From NCBI RefSeq assembly GCF_040796495.1, contig NZ_JBFNQN010000005.1, positions 124,001 through 188,000 of the forward strand: DNA of 64,000 nucleotides, in the 5' to 3' direction. Origin of the DNA: Kineococcus endophyticus. GTDB lineage: Bacteria; Actinomycetota; Actinomycetes; Actinomycetales; Kineococcaceae. The position numbers were made by a program, and so were the translations under genes. Shown one piece after another: positions 56,886 to 64,000 of this stretch (position 1 is the stretch's first letter; each line of letters starts with the position of its first letter). Under the pieces are notes generated by a model. That model was not told where the DNA came from. It saw only the letters and a program-made list of their open reading frames with translations, and did not search any database.

Positions 56886-58430
56886 TCACCCGCCCTGGAC
56901 GGCGCGGCACGCCAGGTGCAGCGCGAGCCGCTGGTCGCGGTCGGTGAGGTCGACCTCGAGGAGCTGCTGCACGCGCGCGACCCGGGCGGCGACCGTGTTC
57001 CGGTGCACGCCGAGGACCGCGGCCGTCTGGACGAGCGAGCTCTCCTGGTCCAGGTAGGCGGCCAGGGTCGTCACGAGGTCCGAGCCGGGCGGCCCGAGCG
57101 GTTCCAGGAGGCTGCGCGCGGCGGGCGGGAACGTGCCCGTTCGGGTCCACGCCAGGAGCGTCTGCGCGACGCCGAGCTGGTCGACGTGCAGGAAGCAACC
57201 CTGCTCGGTGCGGCCGGCGGCCAGGCCGGCCGCGTCGGTGGCCTCGGCCAGCGAGCGGGCGATGCCGCCGGGGCCGCCGTGGGGGCGGCCGACCCCCGTC
57301 CAGCTGCGCAGGTGCCGCCGCAGCGCCCGGTGCACCTGCCGCAGGTCCTCGGCCAGCTCGCGGACCGTCTCGGCGGCCGGGGGTCTCGGCAGGGTGATCC
57401 AGGCGCTCCACCCGTCGCCGTGCTCGACGACGACGGGGGCCAGCCCGCCGTCGGCGAAGGCGGCGGCCACCTCGTCGCGCGAACCGGCGGTGTCCGTCGT
57501 GGCGGGGGCCCCGATCCGGACGCCGACGTGCCAGCCGTCCAGCGCCCACCCGGCGGCGGCCGCGCGGCGGCGCAGCTCGGCGTCGGGGCCGTCGCCGCCC
57601 GCGAGCACGTCCGTCAGCAGCGACGCCCGGGCCCGGGCGTCGCGTTCGAGGCCGAGGCGGTCCACGCCCAGCCGGGCGGCCACCGTCGCCGCGGCGACGG
57701 CCAGGCAGTCGGCGACGGCCTCGACGTCGGCCCACCCGGGCGCGGCGGCGACGAACCAGCGCTGCGCCGCGCGGACCCCGGGGAGCAGGACGGGGTGCGC
57801 GAGCAGCGTCCCGCCCCCGTCGCCCGCCGGCAGGACCGTGCGCTGCGGGACGGGCTCCCCGCTGCGCAGTGCGGCCGTGGGCACGGGGTCGCTGCCCCGG
57901 TGCAGGACGGCGCCGCGGCCGTCGAGGAAGGCCACCGGCAGGTCGAGCGTGCGCTGCAGCAGGCGCACGAACCCGGCGCCGTCCTGGGCCGACGCGCCTG
58001 CGGCGCCCGACACCGCGCGCACGGCCCGCGCTCGCGCGACCTCCGGGGCGGCGAGCGCGACGGCCGCCTCCAGCGCCCGCTGCAGCACGGGCTCGTCGGC
58101 GACGAGCAGCGCCAGGCCCAGGCGCGAGCACAGGAGCCGGGTCGCCCCCGTGGGTTCGGCGGCCGCCGGCAGCAGGACGGCGACGACCCCGGCGTCGGCC
58201 GCCCGGCGCAGCTGCGCCTCGAGCCGCCACGCGTCGGCCGCGCCGGCGCCGACCGCCCCGGTCAGGCAGAGCAGCGTGCCCGGTCCCGCGCCGGGCACCA
58301 CGGTCGCGCCGCCCCCGTCGCCGAGGACCACGTCGCCGGGCGGCGGGCCGTCCAGCGGCCCGGCCACGTGCCGCACGGCCCCGCGCCAGCCCGGCAGGTG
58401 CAGCAGCGCGGCCAGGTCGGGGGTGCTCAC
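56886..58430 (-). CDS. PucR/CdaR-family transcriptional regulator
   Basis: A 514-aa regulator. Its N-terminal half (GWRGAVRHVAGPLDGPPPGDVVLGDGG...) is the PucR-type sensory region, the centre has a GAF- or GGDEF-like fold, and the C-terminal PucR helix-turn-helix is AAYLDQESSLVQTAAVLGVHRNTVAARVARVQQLL. PucR family members control purine, hydantoin and amino-acid catabolism. Its start overlaps the stop of the DUF917 gene by four bases, so it is the last gene of the operon and probably regulates it. Confidence 0.88.
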   Translation of the reverse strand: MSTPDLAALLHLPGWRGAVRHVAGPLDGPPPGDVVLGDGGGATVVPGAGPGTLLCLTGAVGAGAADAWRLEAQLRRAADAGVVAVLLPAAAEPTGATRLLCSRLGLALLVADEPVLQRALEAAVALAAPEVARARAVRAVSGAAGASAQDGAGFVRLLQRTLDLPVAFLDGRGAVLHRGSDPVPTAALRSGEPVPQRTVLPAGDGGGTLLAHPVLLPGVRAAQRWFVAAAPGWADVEAVADCLAVAAATVAARLGVDRLGLERDARARASLLTDVLAGGDGPDAELRRRAAAAGWALDGWHVGVRIGAPATTDTAGSRDEVAAAFADGGLAPVVVEHGDGWSAWITLPRPPAAETVRELAEDLRQVHRALRRHLRSWTGVGRPHGGPGGIARSLAEATDAAGLAAGRTEQGCFLHVDQLGVAQTLLAWTRTGTFPPAARSLLEPLGPPGSDLVTTLAAYLDQESSLVQTAAVLGVHRNTVAARVARVQQLLEVDLTDRDQRLALHLACRAVQGG

Positions 58431-59503
58431 GCGGGGACCCCCGGGAGGACGGGGTCGACGTCGTAGCCGAAGGCGCGCGGGCCGACGGCGTCGAGCCGGG
58501 CGGGCTCGTGCCAGAACCGCGGGGCGTCGAGCCGCAGCACGACGACGTCGTCCCCCCGGCGGACGCGGTCGCAGGACACCGGCCGCGCGGCGCGCCGGTC
58601 CAGGACGGCGAGGACGTCGGGCGTCGTGGCGACGACGTCGCCGTCGGCGAGGGCGAGCAGGTACTCGTTCTCCATCTCCAGGCGCAGCAACGCGCTCGTG
58701 GCGCGGTCGCGCACGACGAGGCTGCCGCGCCCGAACCCGCCCTCCCCCGCGCCGCGGTGGCGCACCACCTCCAGGACGCGTCCGGCGGCGAGCACCTGCC
58801 CGCCCGCGGCCGCGGCCACGGCGGCCGGGCCGGGCGCGTCGGGCAGGGCCAGGAGGCGGCGGCCCACCTCGAGCAGGCGTCGCGTCGTCCCGGCGAGCGC
58901 GTGGCGGCGCAGCTCGGCCAGGGGCCGGGGGCCGACCGCGATCGCGGCCCAGCCACCCCCGCCGGCCAGCACGCTGCGCACGCTCCGCTCGGTCGTCACG
59001 GCGTCCCCGCCGTCGACGACGACGACCTGACCACCGGGCAGGGCCAGGGCCAGCGGGGTGATGTCGGACCCCGCGACGGCGAGGGAGAACTGGTCCAGCC
59101 GGGGCAGGGCGCGGCCGCACAGGTCGAGGTCGACGACGGGCAGCGGGGACCCGGCGGCGGACAGCGCCGTGACGAGGGCCGTCGCGGCGTTGAGCCCGGC
59201 GGCCTCGACGCTCGCCACCGCCCCGGCCCGCACCCCCGTCCAGCGCTGGACGGCGTCCAGGGCGCGGGTGAACTCCCCGCCGCCCGGCAGCTGCTCGGTG
59301 AACACGACGGTCGCGCCGACCATGCCGACGGCGGAGACGAGCAGGCCCGGGTCGGACGCCTCGGGGTCGAGCAGGTCCACCGACCCGCCCCGCAGCAGCC
59401 GGGAGACGAGGATCCCGCCGGCCCGGGCGTCACCGCCGCCGCCGGAACCCAGCACCTCGGCCCCGCGCACGAGGGCCGGGACGTCGGCGGCGGTGAGCTC
59501 CAC
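58427..59503 (-). CDS. DUF917 family protein, divergent paralogue
   Basis: A 358-aa DUF917 protein with the family opening VRGAEVLGSGGGGDARAGGILV, then MVGATVVFTEQLPGG and GGGFGRGSLVVRD. It is more distant from the two paralogues upstream: the DADGMGRAFPELQM motif there is replaced by DLDLCGRALPRLDQFSL. Pfam's DUF917 is, as I recall, now described as an S-methyl-thiohydantoin desulfurase-type domain; that role is unproved here. The GTG at 59503 gives the aligned N-terminus. Last DUF917 gene before pucR. Confidence 0.85.
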   Translation of the reverse strand: MELTAADVPALVRGAEVLGSGGGGDARAGGILVSRLLRGGSVDLLDPEASDPGLLVSAVGMVGATVVFTEQLPGGGEFTRALDAVQRWTGVRAGAVASVEAAGLNAATALVTALSAAGSPLPVVDLDLCGRALPRLDQFSLAVAGSDITPLALALPGGQVVVVDGGDAVTTERSVRSVLAGGGGWAAIAVGPRPLAELRRHALAGTTRRLLEVGRRLLALPDAPGPAAVAAAAGGQVLAAGRVLEVVRHRGAGEGGFGRGSLVVRDRATSALLRLEMENEYLLALADGDVVATTPDVLAVLDRRAARPVSCDRVRRGDDVVVLRLDAPRFWHEPARLDAVGPRAFGYDVDPVLPGVPA

Positions 59504-59528
59504 GGCGGCGATCCTGCCGCACCCGCGG

Positions 59529-60653
59529 TCAGGCAGGTGCGAGCGAGGGTCCCGGCACGAGCTGCTCGACGGGCGTGAAGTCGCGGTCCACCCCGAACGC
59601 GCGGGGCCCGAACACCGCGAGGGCCTCGGGGGTGCGCATGATCGGCGGCGTCGAGATGGCGACGACGACGACCCGCTGGCCCCAGCGCATCCCCTCGGTC
59701 GTGATGGGTTCGCCCGTCTGCTCGTCCAGGACGCAGATGAGGTCGGGCACGACGCAGACGACTTCGCCGTCCAGGACGGCGACCAGGTGCTCGTTCTGGA
59801 ACGACAGGCGCAGGTGCGAGCCGTCGTGGCCGCGCAGGTCGGCGTGCCCCCGCGCGAAACCCCCCGTCGTGCGGCGTTCGACGTCGCCCACCTTGCCCGT
59901 GAACAACGTCCGGACGTTCTCGTAGACGGTCGTGGCGAAGAACTCGGTGAGGGCGTCGACGGGGTCGCTGTGGCTCTCGCGGGCCTCCCGGATCGCGCGG
60001 CCCGCGCCGAGGGACATCGACATGGTGTGCGGGATCGCCGTGCGGCGGACGTCCGCACCCGTCATCGAGTACTCGGCGATGAGGGCCGCGCCCCCGAACT
60101 GGATCGCGATGGCGCGCGAGCAGCGTTCCATGCGGACGTCGTCGGCTCCGGTGTCGATGAGCACGGTCTCCTCGCGGTCGCTCGCGACGACCATGGGGGA
60201 ACCGGAGACGCCGTAGACGCTGAACGTCTCCATCTGCAGTTCGGGGAACGCCCGGCCCATCCCGTCGGCGTCGACGACGGGCAGCCCGGTCCGCGCACCG
60301 ACGAGCAGCGGCATCATCGAGTTGATGCCTCCGCACTCGATGGGCATGGTCGCCTCGGCGCGGCGGCCGAGGTGGGCCTCGAGCCGGCGCAGCGCGACGA
60401 CGGCCTCGGTGCCGCGCGGGATCTTCTCGACCATCACCGTGGGCGCGCCCATCATGGCCGTCGGGACGACGAACGCCTCGTCGGGCAGTTCGGACTCCGC
60501 CTGCGGGTCCAGGACGGTGATGGGCCCGTTCTCGCGGATCGCCTGCTGGACGAGCAACCGGCCGATGTAGGGGTCACCGCCACCGCCGGTGCCGAGGAGC
60601 GCGGCACCGCGGGCCAGGTCGGGCAGGAGGGTCTCGTCGAGGATCCAGCTCAC
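59529..60653 (-). CDS. DUF917 family protein (second of three)
   Basis: A 374-aa DUF917 protein: LARGAALLGTGGGGDPYIGRLLV, AMMGAPTVMVEKIP, VDADGMGRAFPELQM, SMTGADVRRTAIPHTMSMSL and GGFARGHADL. Very similar in length and motifs to the next gene upstream, which points to tandem duplication. GTG start at 60653 overlaps the previous stop by four bases. Family members accompany hydantoinase/oxoprolinase subunits; the reaction is unproved. Confidence 0.88.
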   Translation of the reverse strand: MSWILDETLLPDLARGAALLGTGGGGDPYIGRLLVQQAIRENGPITVLDPQAESELPDEAFVVPTAMMGAPTVMVEKIPRGTEAVVALRRLEAHLGRRAEATMPIECGGINSMMPLLVGARTGLPVVDADGMGRAFPELQMETFSVYGVSGSPMVVASDREETVLIDTGADDVRMERCSRAIAIQFGGAALIAEYSMTGADVRRTAIPHTMSMSLGAGRAIREARESHSDPVDALTEFFATTVYENVRTLFTGKVGDVERRTTGGFARGHADLRGHDGSHLRLSFQNEHLVAVLDGEVVCVVPDLICVLDEQTGEPITTEGMRWGQRVVVVAISTPPIMRTPEALAVFGPRAFGVDRDFTPVEQLVPGPSLAPA

Positions 60654-61774
60654 GGGTGGGCCTCCGTCGGGGTGGGGACGTCGTGGGGGGTGGCGCGGAC
60701 GGGGTCGCTCTCGTAGCCGAACACGCGCGGTCCGGCGAGGGCGAGCCCGGCGGGGCTGTGCCAGCGTTCGTCGCACGGCGCGGCGAGGACGGTGATGCGG
60801 TGGCCGAACCGCAACCCCTCGGTGCGCACGGCCTCCCCGGTCTGGGTGTCGAGCGCGCAGATGAGGTCGGGCACGGTCGAGACGGTCCGGCCGTCGCGGA
60901 CGGCGACGAGGAACTCGTTCTGGAACTCCAGCAGCAGTTCGGACCCCGCGTCGGTCCCGGTGCCGTCCAGCCGCGCCTCGCCGCGGGCGAAACCCGTCGT
61001 GGTCCGGCGGGCGACGTCGGTGACCTTGCCGGTGAACAGGACGGTGCCGCCGAGCAGGTCGGCGACGGCACCCGCGGGGTCACCGCTGGTCCGGGCCGCG
61101 GTGAGGGTCCGGCCGATCCGGGCGGCCAGCGACAGGGTCCCCGGGACGAGCGCCCGGCGGGCCTGGGCGCCGGTCATCCAGTAGTTGCTGATCATCGCCG
61201 AACAGCCCATGTCGATCGTCACCGACCGCGCGAACCGCTCGGCCCACCGGTTGTCGACGGTGTCCAGGACGCCGGAGTTCCCCTTCTCGTCGACGATGGA
61301 CATGGGGGTCCCGCGGATGCCGTAGACGGTGGGCAGCACCATCTGCAGTTCCGGGAACGCCCGGCCCATGCCGTCGGCGTCGAGCAGGGGCAGACCGAGT
61401 TCGGCGGCCCCGACGAACGGGATGAGGGAGTTCACGCCGCCGGCCTCGATGCAGGCCAGGTGGGTGACCTCCAACCCGAGGTGGTCGGTGAGGACGCGGA
61501 TCGCGCGGCCGACCTGGTCGGCCGAGGGCAGCTTCTCCACCATGACGGTCGGCGCGCCCATCATCGCCACCGGCAGGACGACGGCGTCGTCCGGCAGGTC
61601 CTCCAGGGGTGCGAGGTCGACGGGCCCGTGCGCCCGCATCGCGGCCCCGGCCAGCAGCCCGCCGATGTGCGGGTCGCCGCCGCCGCCGGTGCCCAGGACC
61701 GCTGCGCCCCGGCCGATGTCGGCGAGGTCCGCCACCCCGACCCGGGTCCGCAGGGACGTGGCTGCCTCAGGCAT
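60650..61774 (-). CDS. DUF917 family protein (first of three)
   Basis: A 374-aa DUF917 protein: IGRGAAVLGTGGGGDPHIGGLL, AMMGAPTVMVEKLP, LDADGMGRAFPELQM, WMTGAQARRALVPGTLSL and TGFARGEARL. ATG at 61774 overlaps the HyuA stop by eight bases, so it is coupled to that gene. Glycine- and acid-rich motifs suggest a nucleotide- or metal-binding site, but no catalytic residue is established. Confidence 0.88.
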   Translation of the reverse strand: MPEAATSLRTRVGVADLADIGRGAAVLGTGGGGDPHIGGLLAGAAMRAHGPVDLAPLEDLPDDAVVLPVAMMGAPTVMVEKLPSADQVGRAIRVLTDHLGLEVTHLACIEAGGVNSLIPFVGAAELGLPLLDADGMGRAFPELQMVLPTVYGIRGTPMSIVDEKGNSGVLDTVDNRWAERFARSVTIDMGCSAMISNYWMTGAQARRALVPGTLSLAARIGRTLTAARTSGDPAGAVADLLGGTVLFTGKVTDVARRTTTGFARGEARLDGTGTDAGSELLLEFQNEFLVAVRDGRTVSTVPDLICALDTQTGEAVRTEGLRFGHRITVLAAPCDERWHSPAGLALAGPRVFGYESDPVRATPHDVPTPTEAHP

Positions 61775-63344
61775 GCACGGCCTCCCGGCGGGCGGGGGCG
61801 AGCTGCAGGTCCCCGACGGCCTTGACGCGGATGCGCGTCGCGCCACCGGGCAGGTAGGGCAACGGCACCTCGTCGACCTCGAGCACCTCGACCGTGCCGG
61901 GGTCCGCGCCCGCGGCGACGGCGCGTTCGGCGGCCTCGGCGCGGGCGGTGTCGAGCACCTCGGTGCGCTTGCCGGGTTCGATGGAGAACACGCGGTCGAC
62001 CTCGCCGCCGACCTGGGCGATGGCGGCGCCGATGGCGTTGGCCACGGCGAAGTTCTCCGGGCGCAGGACCTCGCCGGCTCCGGCGAGGCGGTCCGGCAGC
62101 AGCACCGACCCGCCGCCCACGGCCACGACGGGCAACGGCTGCGCCGAGGTGCGCATGCGGTCCACGGCGTCGGCCACGTCGACCGCGATCCGCTCCAGCG
62201 CCGCGCGGACGAACGCGGGGTCGAGGTGGGCGACGCGGGAGGCGTCGCCGATGTCCGCACGGCCCGCCGCGACGGCGATGTCCGTCGCCGTCAGCGTCGA
62301 CCCGCCGAAGACGAGCGCCTCCTCGACGAGCCGGAAACCCACCGACTCCGGCCCGACGCGCACGGCGGAACCCTCACCGCGCACGAGGGAACCACCGCCG
62401 ATGCCGATGGAGAGCACGTCCGGCATCCGGAAGTTCGTGCGGATCCCCGCGACGCTGACCTCGGTCGTGGCCTCGCGCGGGAAACCTCGCTGCAGGACAC
62501 CGACGTCGGAGGTGGTGCCGCCGACGTCGACGACCGCGCAGGTGTGGACGCCGGACAGGACCGCCGCCCCGCGCATGGAGTTCGTCGGCCCCGAGGCGAA
62601 CGTCGAGACCGGGTAGCGGCGGGCGTGCTCGACGTCCAGCAGGGTGCCGTCGTTGCTGCTGAGGTAGATCGGGGCGTCGATGCCGGCCCCGGCCACCGAG
62701 GCCCGCAACCCGTCGACGATGCCGCCGGCCAGTTCCCGCAGCGCCGCGTTGACGACCGTCGCGTTCTCCCGCTCCAGCAACCCGATGCGGCCGATCTCGT
62801 GCGACAGCGAGATGGCGACGTGGGGCAGTTCGGCGGCCAGCACCTCGGCGGCGCGCAGCTCGAACTCGGTGTTGACGGGCGAGAACACCGACGTGATGGC
62901 CACGCTGCGGACCCCGTGGGCCGCCATGTCCGCGGCGTGGCGGCGCAGTTCGTCCTCGTCGAGCGCGGAGATCGTCCGGCCGTCGAACTCGTGCCCGCCG
63001 TGGGCGAGGTAGGCGCGCCCGGAGACGGCCTGCACGAGGCGTTCGGGCCAGTCGACCATCGGCGGCAGCGAGGCCGTCGCCGGCAGCCCCAGGCGCAGGG
63101 CCGCGGTGGGGGCGAGCCGTCGGGCCTCGACGAGGGCGTTGATGAAGTGCGTCGTGCCGATCATCACGGCCCGCACCCCGGCCGGGTCGAACGCCCGGCG
63201 GTCCTGCAGACCCGACAGGGCCGCGACGATCCCGCCGGAGACGTCGGCGCTCGTGGAGCACTTGACGGCGGCCAGGACGGACCCGTCGTCGTCGAGCAGG
63301 ACCGCGTCCGTGTTGGTGCCGCCGACGTCGATGCCGATGCGCAT
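61767..63344 (-). CDS. Hydantoinase/oxoprolinase family protein (HyuA-like)
   Basis: A 525-aa protein of the ASKHA-fold hydantoinase A/oxoprolinase family: phosphate loops RIGIDVGGTNTDAVLLD at the N-terminus and CAVVDVGGTTSDVGVLQRG near residue 275, NALVEARR and SFG-type VLSIGIGGGSL. These enzymes ring-open hydantoin-like amides using ATP. It is a short, single-subunit form; no HyuB partner lies in the window, and DUF917 genes follow instead. ATG with GAGAGGA upstream. Confidence 0.9.
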   Translation of the reverse strand: MRIGIDVGGTNTDAVLLDDDGSVLAAVKCSTSADVSGGIVAALSGLQDRRAFDPAGVRAVMIGTTHFINALVEARRLAPTAALRLGLPATASLPPMVDWPERLVQAVSGRAYLAHGGHEFDGRTISALDEDELRRHAADMAAHGVRSVAITSVFSPVNTEFELRAAEVLAAELPHVAISLSHEIGRIGLLERENATVVNAALRELAGGIVDGLRASVAGAGIDAPIYLSSNDGTLLDVEHARRYPVSTFASGPTNSMRGAAVLSGVHTCAVVDVGGTTSDVGVLQRGFPREATTEVSVAGIRTNFRMPDVLSIGIGGGSLVRGEGSAVRVGPESVGFRLVEEALVFGGSTLTATDIAVAAGRADIGDASRVAHLDPAFVRAALERIAVDVADAVDRMRTSAQPLPVVAVGGGSVLLPDRLAGAGEVLRPENFAVANAIGAAIAQVGGEVDRVFSIEPGKRTEVLDTARAEAAERAVAAGADPGTVEVLEVDEVPLPYLPGGATRIRVKAVGDLQLAPARREAVHA

Positions 63345-63386
63345 GGGGTTTCCTCTCGGGTGGTGCGGGCGGTCGGACGGTGGCGG

Positions 63387-64000
63387 TCAGACGGTGGCGG
63401 TCGCGGTGCTGGCGGGTTCGACGACCTCGCCGTCGGTGGTCCGGCTCGTGCCGACCTCGCGCAGCAGACCAGCGCGCCCGGCGACGACGTACAGGACGAA
63501 GGAGATGACGAGCGAGTTCACCGACCCCAGCCCGACGTGGACGAAGTACCCGAACAGCGACGCCACGGCCCACACGACGAGCGTCGCGGGGACCCACGTC
63601 GGGGAGGTCTCGGGGACGGCGTCCCCGTCGGCGCGCGAGCTCTCCAGGACCCCGCGCCACTTCTTCACGACGAAGTACTCCGCGACCATGATCCCGGCGA
63701 TGGGCGGGAACACGACGCCGAGGACGATGAGGAACCCGGTGAGCTGACCGAGGATCCCGGCCGCGGCGAGCAGGCTCCCGACGACCCCGATGACGGCCGT
63801 CGTGGCGGCGCGGTTGACGCGGCGACCGGTGACGGTGCCGATGAAGTTCACGACCCCGAGACCGGAGGAGTAGAGGTTCCAGTCGTTGATCTTGACCGTG
63901 CCGAGCAGGACGACGAGGACCGCGACCCAGCCGACGGAGGACGTGAGGATCGTCGTGATCTCGCTGGAGCCGATGGCGTGGGCGAGCAGGACGCCCGACA
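63387..64000 (-). CDS. NCS1-type nucleobase/allantoin/hydantoin permease (partial)
   Basis: The 3' 204 codons of a membrane transporter whose start lies beyond the window. The visible part includes the helices GVLLAHAIG, WVAVLVVLLGTV and a typical cytosine-permease-like KINDWNLYSSGLGVVNF, then PPIAGIMVAEYFVVKKWRG and a short tail. NCS1 permeases import purines, allantoin, hydantoin or cytosine. As first gene of the operon it probably imports the substrate of the HyuA/DUF917 enzymes. Confidence 0.85.
   Translation of the reverse strand, partial: SGVLLAHAIGSSEITTILTSSVGWVAVLVVLLGTVKINDWNLYSSGLGVVNFIGTVTGRRVNRAATTAVIGVVGSLLAAAGILGQLTGFLIVLGVVFPPIAGIMVAEYFVVKKWRGVLESSRADGDAVPETSPTWVPATLVVWAVASLFGYFVHVGLGSVNSLVISFVLYVVAGRAGLLREVGTSRTTDGEVVEPASTATATV

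Follow-up and report, generated by a model that had tools for sequence, protein, structure and literature searches.

Among described systems, the closest to the locus analysed here are the HyuA/HyuB enzymes CapAB, 5-oxoprolinase and N-methylhydantoinase; in CapAB, the lactam is held to be activated by CapA and hydrolysed by CapB, which has an Asp-His-Asp-His metal site (PMC8453981, available portion). DUF917 proteins are described in two other settings, as S-methyl thiohydantoin and thiohydantoin desulfurases of ergothioneine breakdown, and in cyclodipeptide-oxidase (CDO) clusters, where DUF917 was reported to be enriched and suggested to be hydantoinases (PMC11055893, Nat Commun 2024, available portion). 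The present locus is a six-gene operon of Kineococcus endophyticus, located at the end of a 64,000-nucleotide stretch of DNA (the window), with the order NCS1 permease-HyuA-D1-D2-D3-PucR, D1, D2 and D3 being DUF917 proteins. As an earlier note on this DNA had described, all six genes lie on the minus strand, D1 and D2 match in length, and most starts and stops overlap, namely at three of the five junctions (PucR/D3 by 4 nt, D2/D1 by 4 nt, D1/HyuA by 8 nt), with gaps of 25 nt at D3/D2 and 42 nt at HyuA/NCS1.

In the reading favoured here, held with as much doubt as belief, the operon combines an importer with an ATP-driven ring opener formed by HyuA and D1/D2, and D3 is a PucR-linked sensor. 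The NCS1 permease would import a small cyclic amide, ureide or imide; HyuA would phosphorylate the ring carbonyl and so activate it, as proposed for CapA and 5-oxoprolinase; the hydrolysis would then be completed by D1 and D2 in place of HyuB, presumably in contact with HyuA; and D3 would have kept the ligand pocket, left catalysis, and served together with PucR as an inducer sensor. If true, ATP-driven lactam hydrolysis would have been solved a second time, with a partner other than HyuB; a large DUF would become a testable enzyme subunit; and an enzyme would have turned sensor of its own operon.

A short HyuA paired with DUF917

As in the HyuA/HyuB family, the window HyuA has the HyuA fold and both DxGGTx[TS]D phosphate-binding motifs, intact at residues 6 (DVGGTNTD) and 273 (DVGGTTSD), and is likewise predicted to drive the opening of a cyclic amide with ATP; its model (predicted local distance difference test, pLDDT, 84.8) matched caprolactamase CapA best (6yra, Z 29.1, root-mean-square deviation (rmsd) 4.2, 504 aligned). 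It differs from that family in being short, in having DUF917 instead of HyuB in the neighbouring gene position, and in its C-terminus, where domain PF19278 was not found by Pfam scan, either in this protein or in 3/3 other short HyuAs scanned (L092 short, L087, L089), the long control HyuA of L092 carrying the domain at 53.4 bits. In the HyuA tree, a branch of length 4.5 (changes per column) with 100/100 support divides 43 short HyuAs from 7 long ones that neighbour HyuB.

The earlier note had allowed for a HyuB gene just beyond the window; none was found next door, and PF02538 had 0 matches in the whole genome (control positive 6/14). PF02538 was likewise not found in 6 of 32 further genomes holding the cluster. 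Where HyuB does lie near DUF917 (L080, L092, L093, L110, L117, L118, L122), it adjoins a long HyuA, with an additional HyuB fragment, lacking a visible partner, in L118. Since CapAB splits activation from hydrolysis and no HyuB was found here, DUF917 suggests itself as the hydrolytic partner that HyuA would otherwise lack, and the proposal of the earlier note that DUF917 replaces HyuB is supported as far as gene context goes (no HyuB, a short HyuA tied to DUF917), its chemical side remaining a prediction. The Asp-His-Asp-His site of CapB has no evident DUF917 counterpart, no histidine being among the conserved DUF917 columns.

The strength of the pairing was assessed in three sets of loci. GTDB genomes were searched with D1 and the top 80 among 555 loci were taken, giving 81 with our own; HyuA directly precedes D1 in 78/81 (gap ≤130 nt), a linkage that is ascertained because the loci were found with D1 itself. 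A draw of 296 genomes from the phylum is a less biased test: PF06032 was present in 17, and a short HyuA lay beside DUF917 in 18 of 20 stretches (16 genomes, our own excluded), the exceptions being L108 (best score to S-methyl thiohydantoin desulfurase, 187 bits) and L127 (a 6.8 kb contig). Finally, 25 plasmid stretches were chosen by hand from listed rows, and so are no random sample; a HyuA-like gene lay beside DUF917 in 20 of the first 22, one of the 20 (L093) having no ATP motifs. The association of short HyuA with DUF917 spans Actinobacteria, Firmicutes, Proteobacteria and the archaeon Haloferax, and its hosts include soil actinobacteria, gut and food firmicutes, rhizobial plasmids, insect symbionts and a halophilic archaeon.

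The full six-gene set is present in 53/81 loci, and D1-D3 do co-occur; neither this nor the search for HyuB beyond the window refutes the earlier note. D2 is absent from 18/81 loci, among them L085, whose contig ends after D1, and D3 from 7/81, some at contig ends. Within the genus the cluster is patchy, since only 3/11 genomes have DUF917, with exactly three copies in each, and the six-gene order is kept in both genus mates (L128, L129). D1-D3 are the sole PF06032 matches in our own genome (5.04 Mb, 46 contigs, rated 100% complete), and the clustering of these genes is therefore not due to chance.

Table 1. Genes of the operon and HyuA-like genes without ATP motifs. Coordinates without prefix are window positions; L004 is a stretch of our own genome that continues past the window end, and window base 64000 equals L004:10001.
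Feature	Coordinates	Strand	Domain matches and remarks
NCS1-type permease	63387..64000, cut by window end	minus	PF02133, 32.0 bits in window part, no NCS1 subfamily model over cut-off there; gene start about L004:10689-10743; whole gene (L004:9388-10740) 64.9 bits, cut-off 23.5
Short HyuA-type ASKHA ATPase, 525 aa	61767..63344	minus	PF05378 126.3 bits, PF01968 109.4 bits
D1, DUF917 (S-Me-THD-like), 374 aa, ATG at 61774	60650..61774	minus	Both DUF917 halves, PF06032 and PF20906, over gathering cut-off
D2, DUF917, 374 aa	59529..60653	minus	PF06032 and PF20906 over gathering cut-off; separate clade, 99 SH-aLRT (Shimodaira-Hasegawa-like approximate likelihood ratio test)
D3, divergent DUF917, 358 aa, GTG start at 59503	58427..59503	minus	PF06032 and PF20906 over gathering cut-off
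PucR-type regulator, 514 aa, GGDEF-like and HTH_30 domains	56886..58430	minus	PF13556 66.1 bits (cut-off 27), PF17853 60.4 bits, both over cut-off
ATP-motif-less HyuA-like, PucR-type neighbour	L093:5634-6830		
ATP-motif-less HyuA-like, PucR-type neighbour	L160:6878-8194		
ATP-motif-less HyuA-like, PucR-type neighbour	L096:4626-5999		
ATP-motif-less HyuA-like, sigma-54 regulator neighbour	L088:4029-5420		
ATP-motif-less HyuA-like, sigma-54 regulator neighbour	L161:6779-8170		

D3, its ancestry and the PucR regulator

Structure alignments of 55 and 22 rows were made, and a DUF917 tree was built from 90 D1-, 71 D2- and 72 D3-labelled rows; after inspection of the tree, two D2 labels were moved to the D1 set and nine outliers were set aside, leaving 89/66/69. 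The D1 and D2 clades (support 99 each) take in Haloferax plus Firmicute or Proteobacterial members, and the D3 clade is, in this sample, actinobacterial. A recent tandem duplication of D1-D3 within the operon was rejected, a single clade of D3 with actinobacterial D1/D2 having a p of 2.2e-9 in the approximately unbiased (AU) test. By this phylogeny, D1, D2 and D3 are old lineages. Eight charged residues (E80, E110, D132, D134, E179, K250, R256, E287) are conserved at ~100% in 167 D1/D2-type DUF917s, a set chosen by clade and neighbours, and composed of the 89 and 66 rows above, three of the nine outliers and nine plasmid proteins.

The earlier note held that the third paralogue is shorter, which it is, and that it has lost the DADGMGRAFPELQM motif, which it has not simply done: the D3 stretch aligned with DADGMGRAFPELQM reads DLDLCGRALPRLDQ, and D3 orthologues keep both aspartates, the second G and the R of the motif in 69/69, and the P in 66/69. 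The acidic residues common to D1/D2-type DUF917s are kept as well (E80 69/69, E110 68/69, and D132, D134, E179 and E287 69/69 each). With the motif aspartates, G and R plus this acidic set in place, a dead copy arising through motif loss was rejected. What has changed in D3 is E142, which is R in 67/69, and M145, which is Q in 69/69; the putative E142/R326 pair of D1/D2 becomes R (67/69) and E or D (64/69). From these substitutions beside an acidic set that stays, we read D3 as having probably kept the ligand pocket, with its coupling altered.

D3 adjoins PucR in 71/81 loci, 68 in line and 3 with the pair inverted (L055, L078, L082). In L074 and L083 the pair is upstream, their DUF917s falling outside the D3 clade, and in L022, L030 and L032 (genomes G314, G437, G438) an adjacent D3-PucR pair follows D2 only after 6 to 15 kb, as would be expected had other genes been inserted in between. 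A genome-wide search for L045 found its D1/D2 as the only D3 matches and no PucR match at 1e-10; L048, L063, L081 and L085 end at a contig edge, and in L076 and L080 (Chloroflexi) neither gene was found within the stretch examined. D3 thus moves with PucR rather than with HyuA, even when inverted or displaced.

The explanation that best survives beside the favoured one, though clearly the less probable of the two, is that the three DUF917s are all catalytic, either as one heteromer or as parallel enzymes of different specificity, and that D3 stands beside PucR by chance. It draws on the acidic residues that D3 shares with D1/D2-type DUF917s, on the gene overlaps, which suggest one transcript, and on Haloferax mediterranei, where three DUF917 genes lie round one HyuA. 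Against it are the inverted, upstream and displaced D3-PucR pairs, the joint absence of D3 and PucR in L045, and the faster divergence of D3, with a mean identity of 56% over the same 56 loci at which D1 has 73% and D2 78%. A heteromer of all three, as the earlier note put forward, is not supported in that form, given the 18 loci without D2, the many genomes with one DUF917 per HyuA, and D3 following PucR rather than HyuA.

The putative sensor role of D3 may have parallels elsewhere. Five of 142 distinct HyuA-like open reading frames >900 nt are without both ATP motifs, and all five lie beside DUF917 and a regulator (Table 1). Those with PucR-type neighbours are on two Arthrobacter-type plasmids and one Rhodococcus plasmid, HTH_30 being over cut-off in 3/3 of these neighbours (L093, L096, L160), and those with sigma-54 regulators are on two Geobacillus-type plasmids; an intact HyuA-DUF917 pair is found alongside in both Geobacillus-type plasmids and in the Rhodococcus plasmid, whose record is unannotated. 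In a tree of 58 chosen rows, where the label 'regulator-linked' was taken from gene neighbours and part of the rows had first been noticed as outliers in the earlier tree, D3 and the other PucR-linked DUF917s formed one clade (83/75), and adding the sigma-54 DUF917 pair to it was not rejected (p 0.21). Tentatively, and with more doubt than belief, HyuA-DUF917 enzymes may have been duplicated into ligand sensors, either an ATPase-dead HyuA with a divergent DUF917 or a divergent DUF917 alone (D3), which would be encoded with a PucR or, in another lineage, a sigma-54 regulator and report the ring substrate to it; on the enzyme side, DUF917 would act on the phosphoimidate made by HyuA. Such a phosphoimidate would be chemically analogous to the S-methyl thioimidate attacked by the known DUF917 desulfurase, so that both activities could be united as hydrolysis of an activated imidate.

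Several observations weigh against HyuA-D1/D2 as ring opener and D3 as sensor. Fold searches gave DUF917 no HyuB-like match among the rows shown, an absence that proves nothing in either direction; for D1, 2o3i alone stands out, a structural-genomics entry with no named function (model pLDDT 91.8, Z 40.1, rmsd 2.2, 335 aligned, next row Z 4.9). The two exceptions among the first 22 plasmid stretches, L104 and L105, carry DUF917 in stretches that show no HyuA, and DUF917 can therefore act without HyuA. HyuB is encoded somewhere in 26/32 of the other cluster-holding genomes, and a shared HyuB is therefore possible in those 26. With its acidic set kept, D3 may still be catalytic; the five motif-less HyuA copies represent only three lineages, not five independent cases; and the PucR-linked clade is moderately supported, with long branches.

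No experimental characterisation of the HyuA-DUF917 pairing was found in the open literature searched, subscription papers being mostly outside it. The CDO study (PMC11055893) concerns the same DUF917 family, and its available portion names neither a HyuA-DUF917 pairing replacing HyuB nor a regulator-linked DUF917 lineage. New here is that D3 keeps the motif core, is no recent duplicate and is linked with PucR, possibly a variation on the ATP-dependent amidohydrolase theme with an enzyme-derived sensor.

Comparison with thiohydantoin desulfurases

D1-D3 were scored with the NCBIfam equivalog models NF058532 (cut-off 450 bits) and NF058529 (cut-off 440 bits), both of which they match weakly, at 107.6/78.4 for D1, 95.3/71.9 for D2 and 71.3/74.9 for D3, all far below cut-off. 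As positive control, the L105 protein reached 555.1 bits over 450 as an S-methyl thiohydantoin desulfurase, with S-methyl thiourocanate hydratase (976 over 880) and ErtE (576 over 520) as neighbours. Unlike the D1/D2-type proteins, this desulfurase has L, H, A, S, T and V at E80, E110, D134, E179, K250 and R256, keeping D132 and E287; the stand-alone DUF917 of L104 keeps E110, D134 and E179, and not K250 or R256. By these scores D1-D3 are therefore set apart from the desulfurases, and some of the DUF917 charged residues track the presence of HyuA. The L105 region itself (L105:6821-11488, Agrobacterium tumefaciens pAt) is a breakdown cluster of the S-methyl ergothioneine type, whose genes are annotated merely as DUF917, Zn-dependent hydrolase and urocanate hydratase.

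The pAt cluster, in which a desulfurase occurs with its pathway enzymes and no HyuA in the stretch, would suit an unlikely explanation in which DUF917s are stand-alone hydrolases or desulfurases, HyuA serves an earlier or later pathway step, and no HyuA-DUF917 enzyme exists; a long HyuA/HyuB pair near a short HyuA-DUF917 pair (L110, L117, L118, L122, L092) points the same way. However, the short HyuAs form a single subfamily whose tie to DUF917 extends across Actinobacteria, Firmicutes, Proteobacteria and Haloferax, and the charged residues invariant in D1/D2-type proteins are absent from the desulfurase, neither of which would be predicted from a mere link by pathway step.

Substrate clues and neighbouring genes

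Clues to the substrate conflict, pointing variously to hydantoin-like rings, diketopiperazines and others. An Asp/Glu/hydantoin racemase is encoded in 9/81 loci (by similarity, two checked by Pfam), which together with the NCS1 permease suggests hydantoin-like rings. In two Chloroflexi loci, D1-D2 have a cyclodipeptide-oxidase-like gene as neighbour (identified by Pfam in L076 and by similarity in L080), which with oligopeptide-type transporters suggests diketopiperazines. The neighbours of D1-D2 in these loci (L076:7983-11799, L080:1586-8397) include this cyclodipeptide-oxidase-like protein, of nitroreductase/DUF6092 type, and a long HyuA, L080 having HyuB as well.

That the operon specifically opens cyclic dipeptides (diketopiperazines), HyuA-DUF917 giving a linear dipeptide that peptidases then cut, is about as improbable as stand-alone DUF917 action. 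Besides the two Chloroflexi loci, it has in its favour the DUF917 enrichment in CDO clusters (available portion of PMC11055893), oligopeptide/dipeptide-type ABC proteins and peptidase genes near some pairs (a raw occurrence), and an alpha/beta hydrolase upstream of our own operon; however, that hydrolase, and the amino-acid permease and GntR gene with it, have no match in the L128/L129 stretches, and NCS1 transporters and racemases equally indicate hydantoin-like ureides. Action of D1/D2 on a thiohydantoin with release of sulfide, one of the substrate classes that the earlier note proposed, is very improbable: the reference activity of DUF917 and the OsmC and cysteine-synthase-family genes between two DUF917s of a Streptomycetaceae plasmid (L086:7949-9480, a possible sulfur link) speak for it, but D1/D2 score 72-108 bits, and D1-D3 together 71-108, against cut-offs of 440-450, the true desulfurase departs from D1/D2-type DUF917s at six of their conserved residues, the one locus passing the cut-off has no HyuA in the stretch, and sulfur genes stand between DUF917s in only one locus among those with annotation read.

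Two other gene types occur between D2 and D3. A D-glutamate cyclase family gene is found there in three loci (one scanned), on the opposite strand at L006:11790-12602 (PF07286), and also in L011 and L014, and an SDR gene in the Amycolatopsis-type loci L007 (Pfam-checked), L015, L031 and L049.

Beyond the window, past the permease, lie an APC-type permease, an alpha/beta hydrolase and a divergent GntR-like gene (the GntR name coming from sequence reading); a conserved operon reaching upstream to these three was rejected, as none has a match in the L128/L129 stretches. A TspO/MBR-family gene follows downstream of the GntR-like gene (L004:14088-14927), and in L128 a TspO/MBR relative stands directly after the NCS1 gene; because of this adjacency, the APC, hydrolase and GntR genes were either inserted here or lost in L128. 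Further afield, Clostridioides difficile CDR20291_1615-1617 (permease, DUF917 and hydantoinase, with consecutive numbers) have positive values in the hcpR table of PMC12915319 (available portion), and are possibly the same kind of operon.

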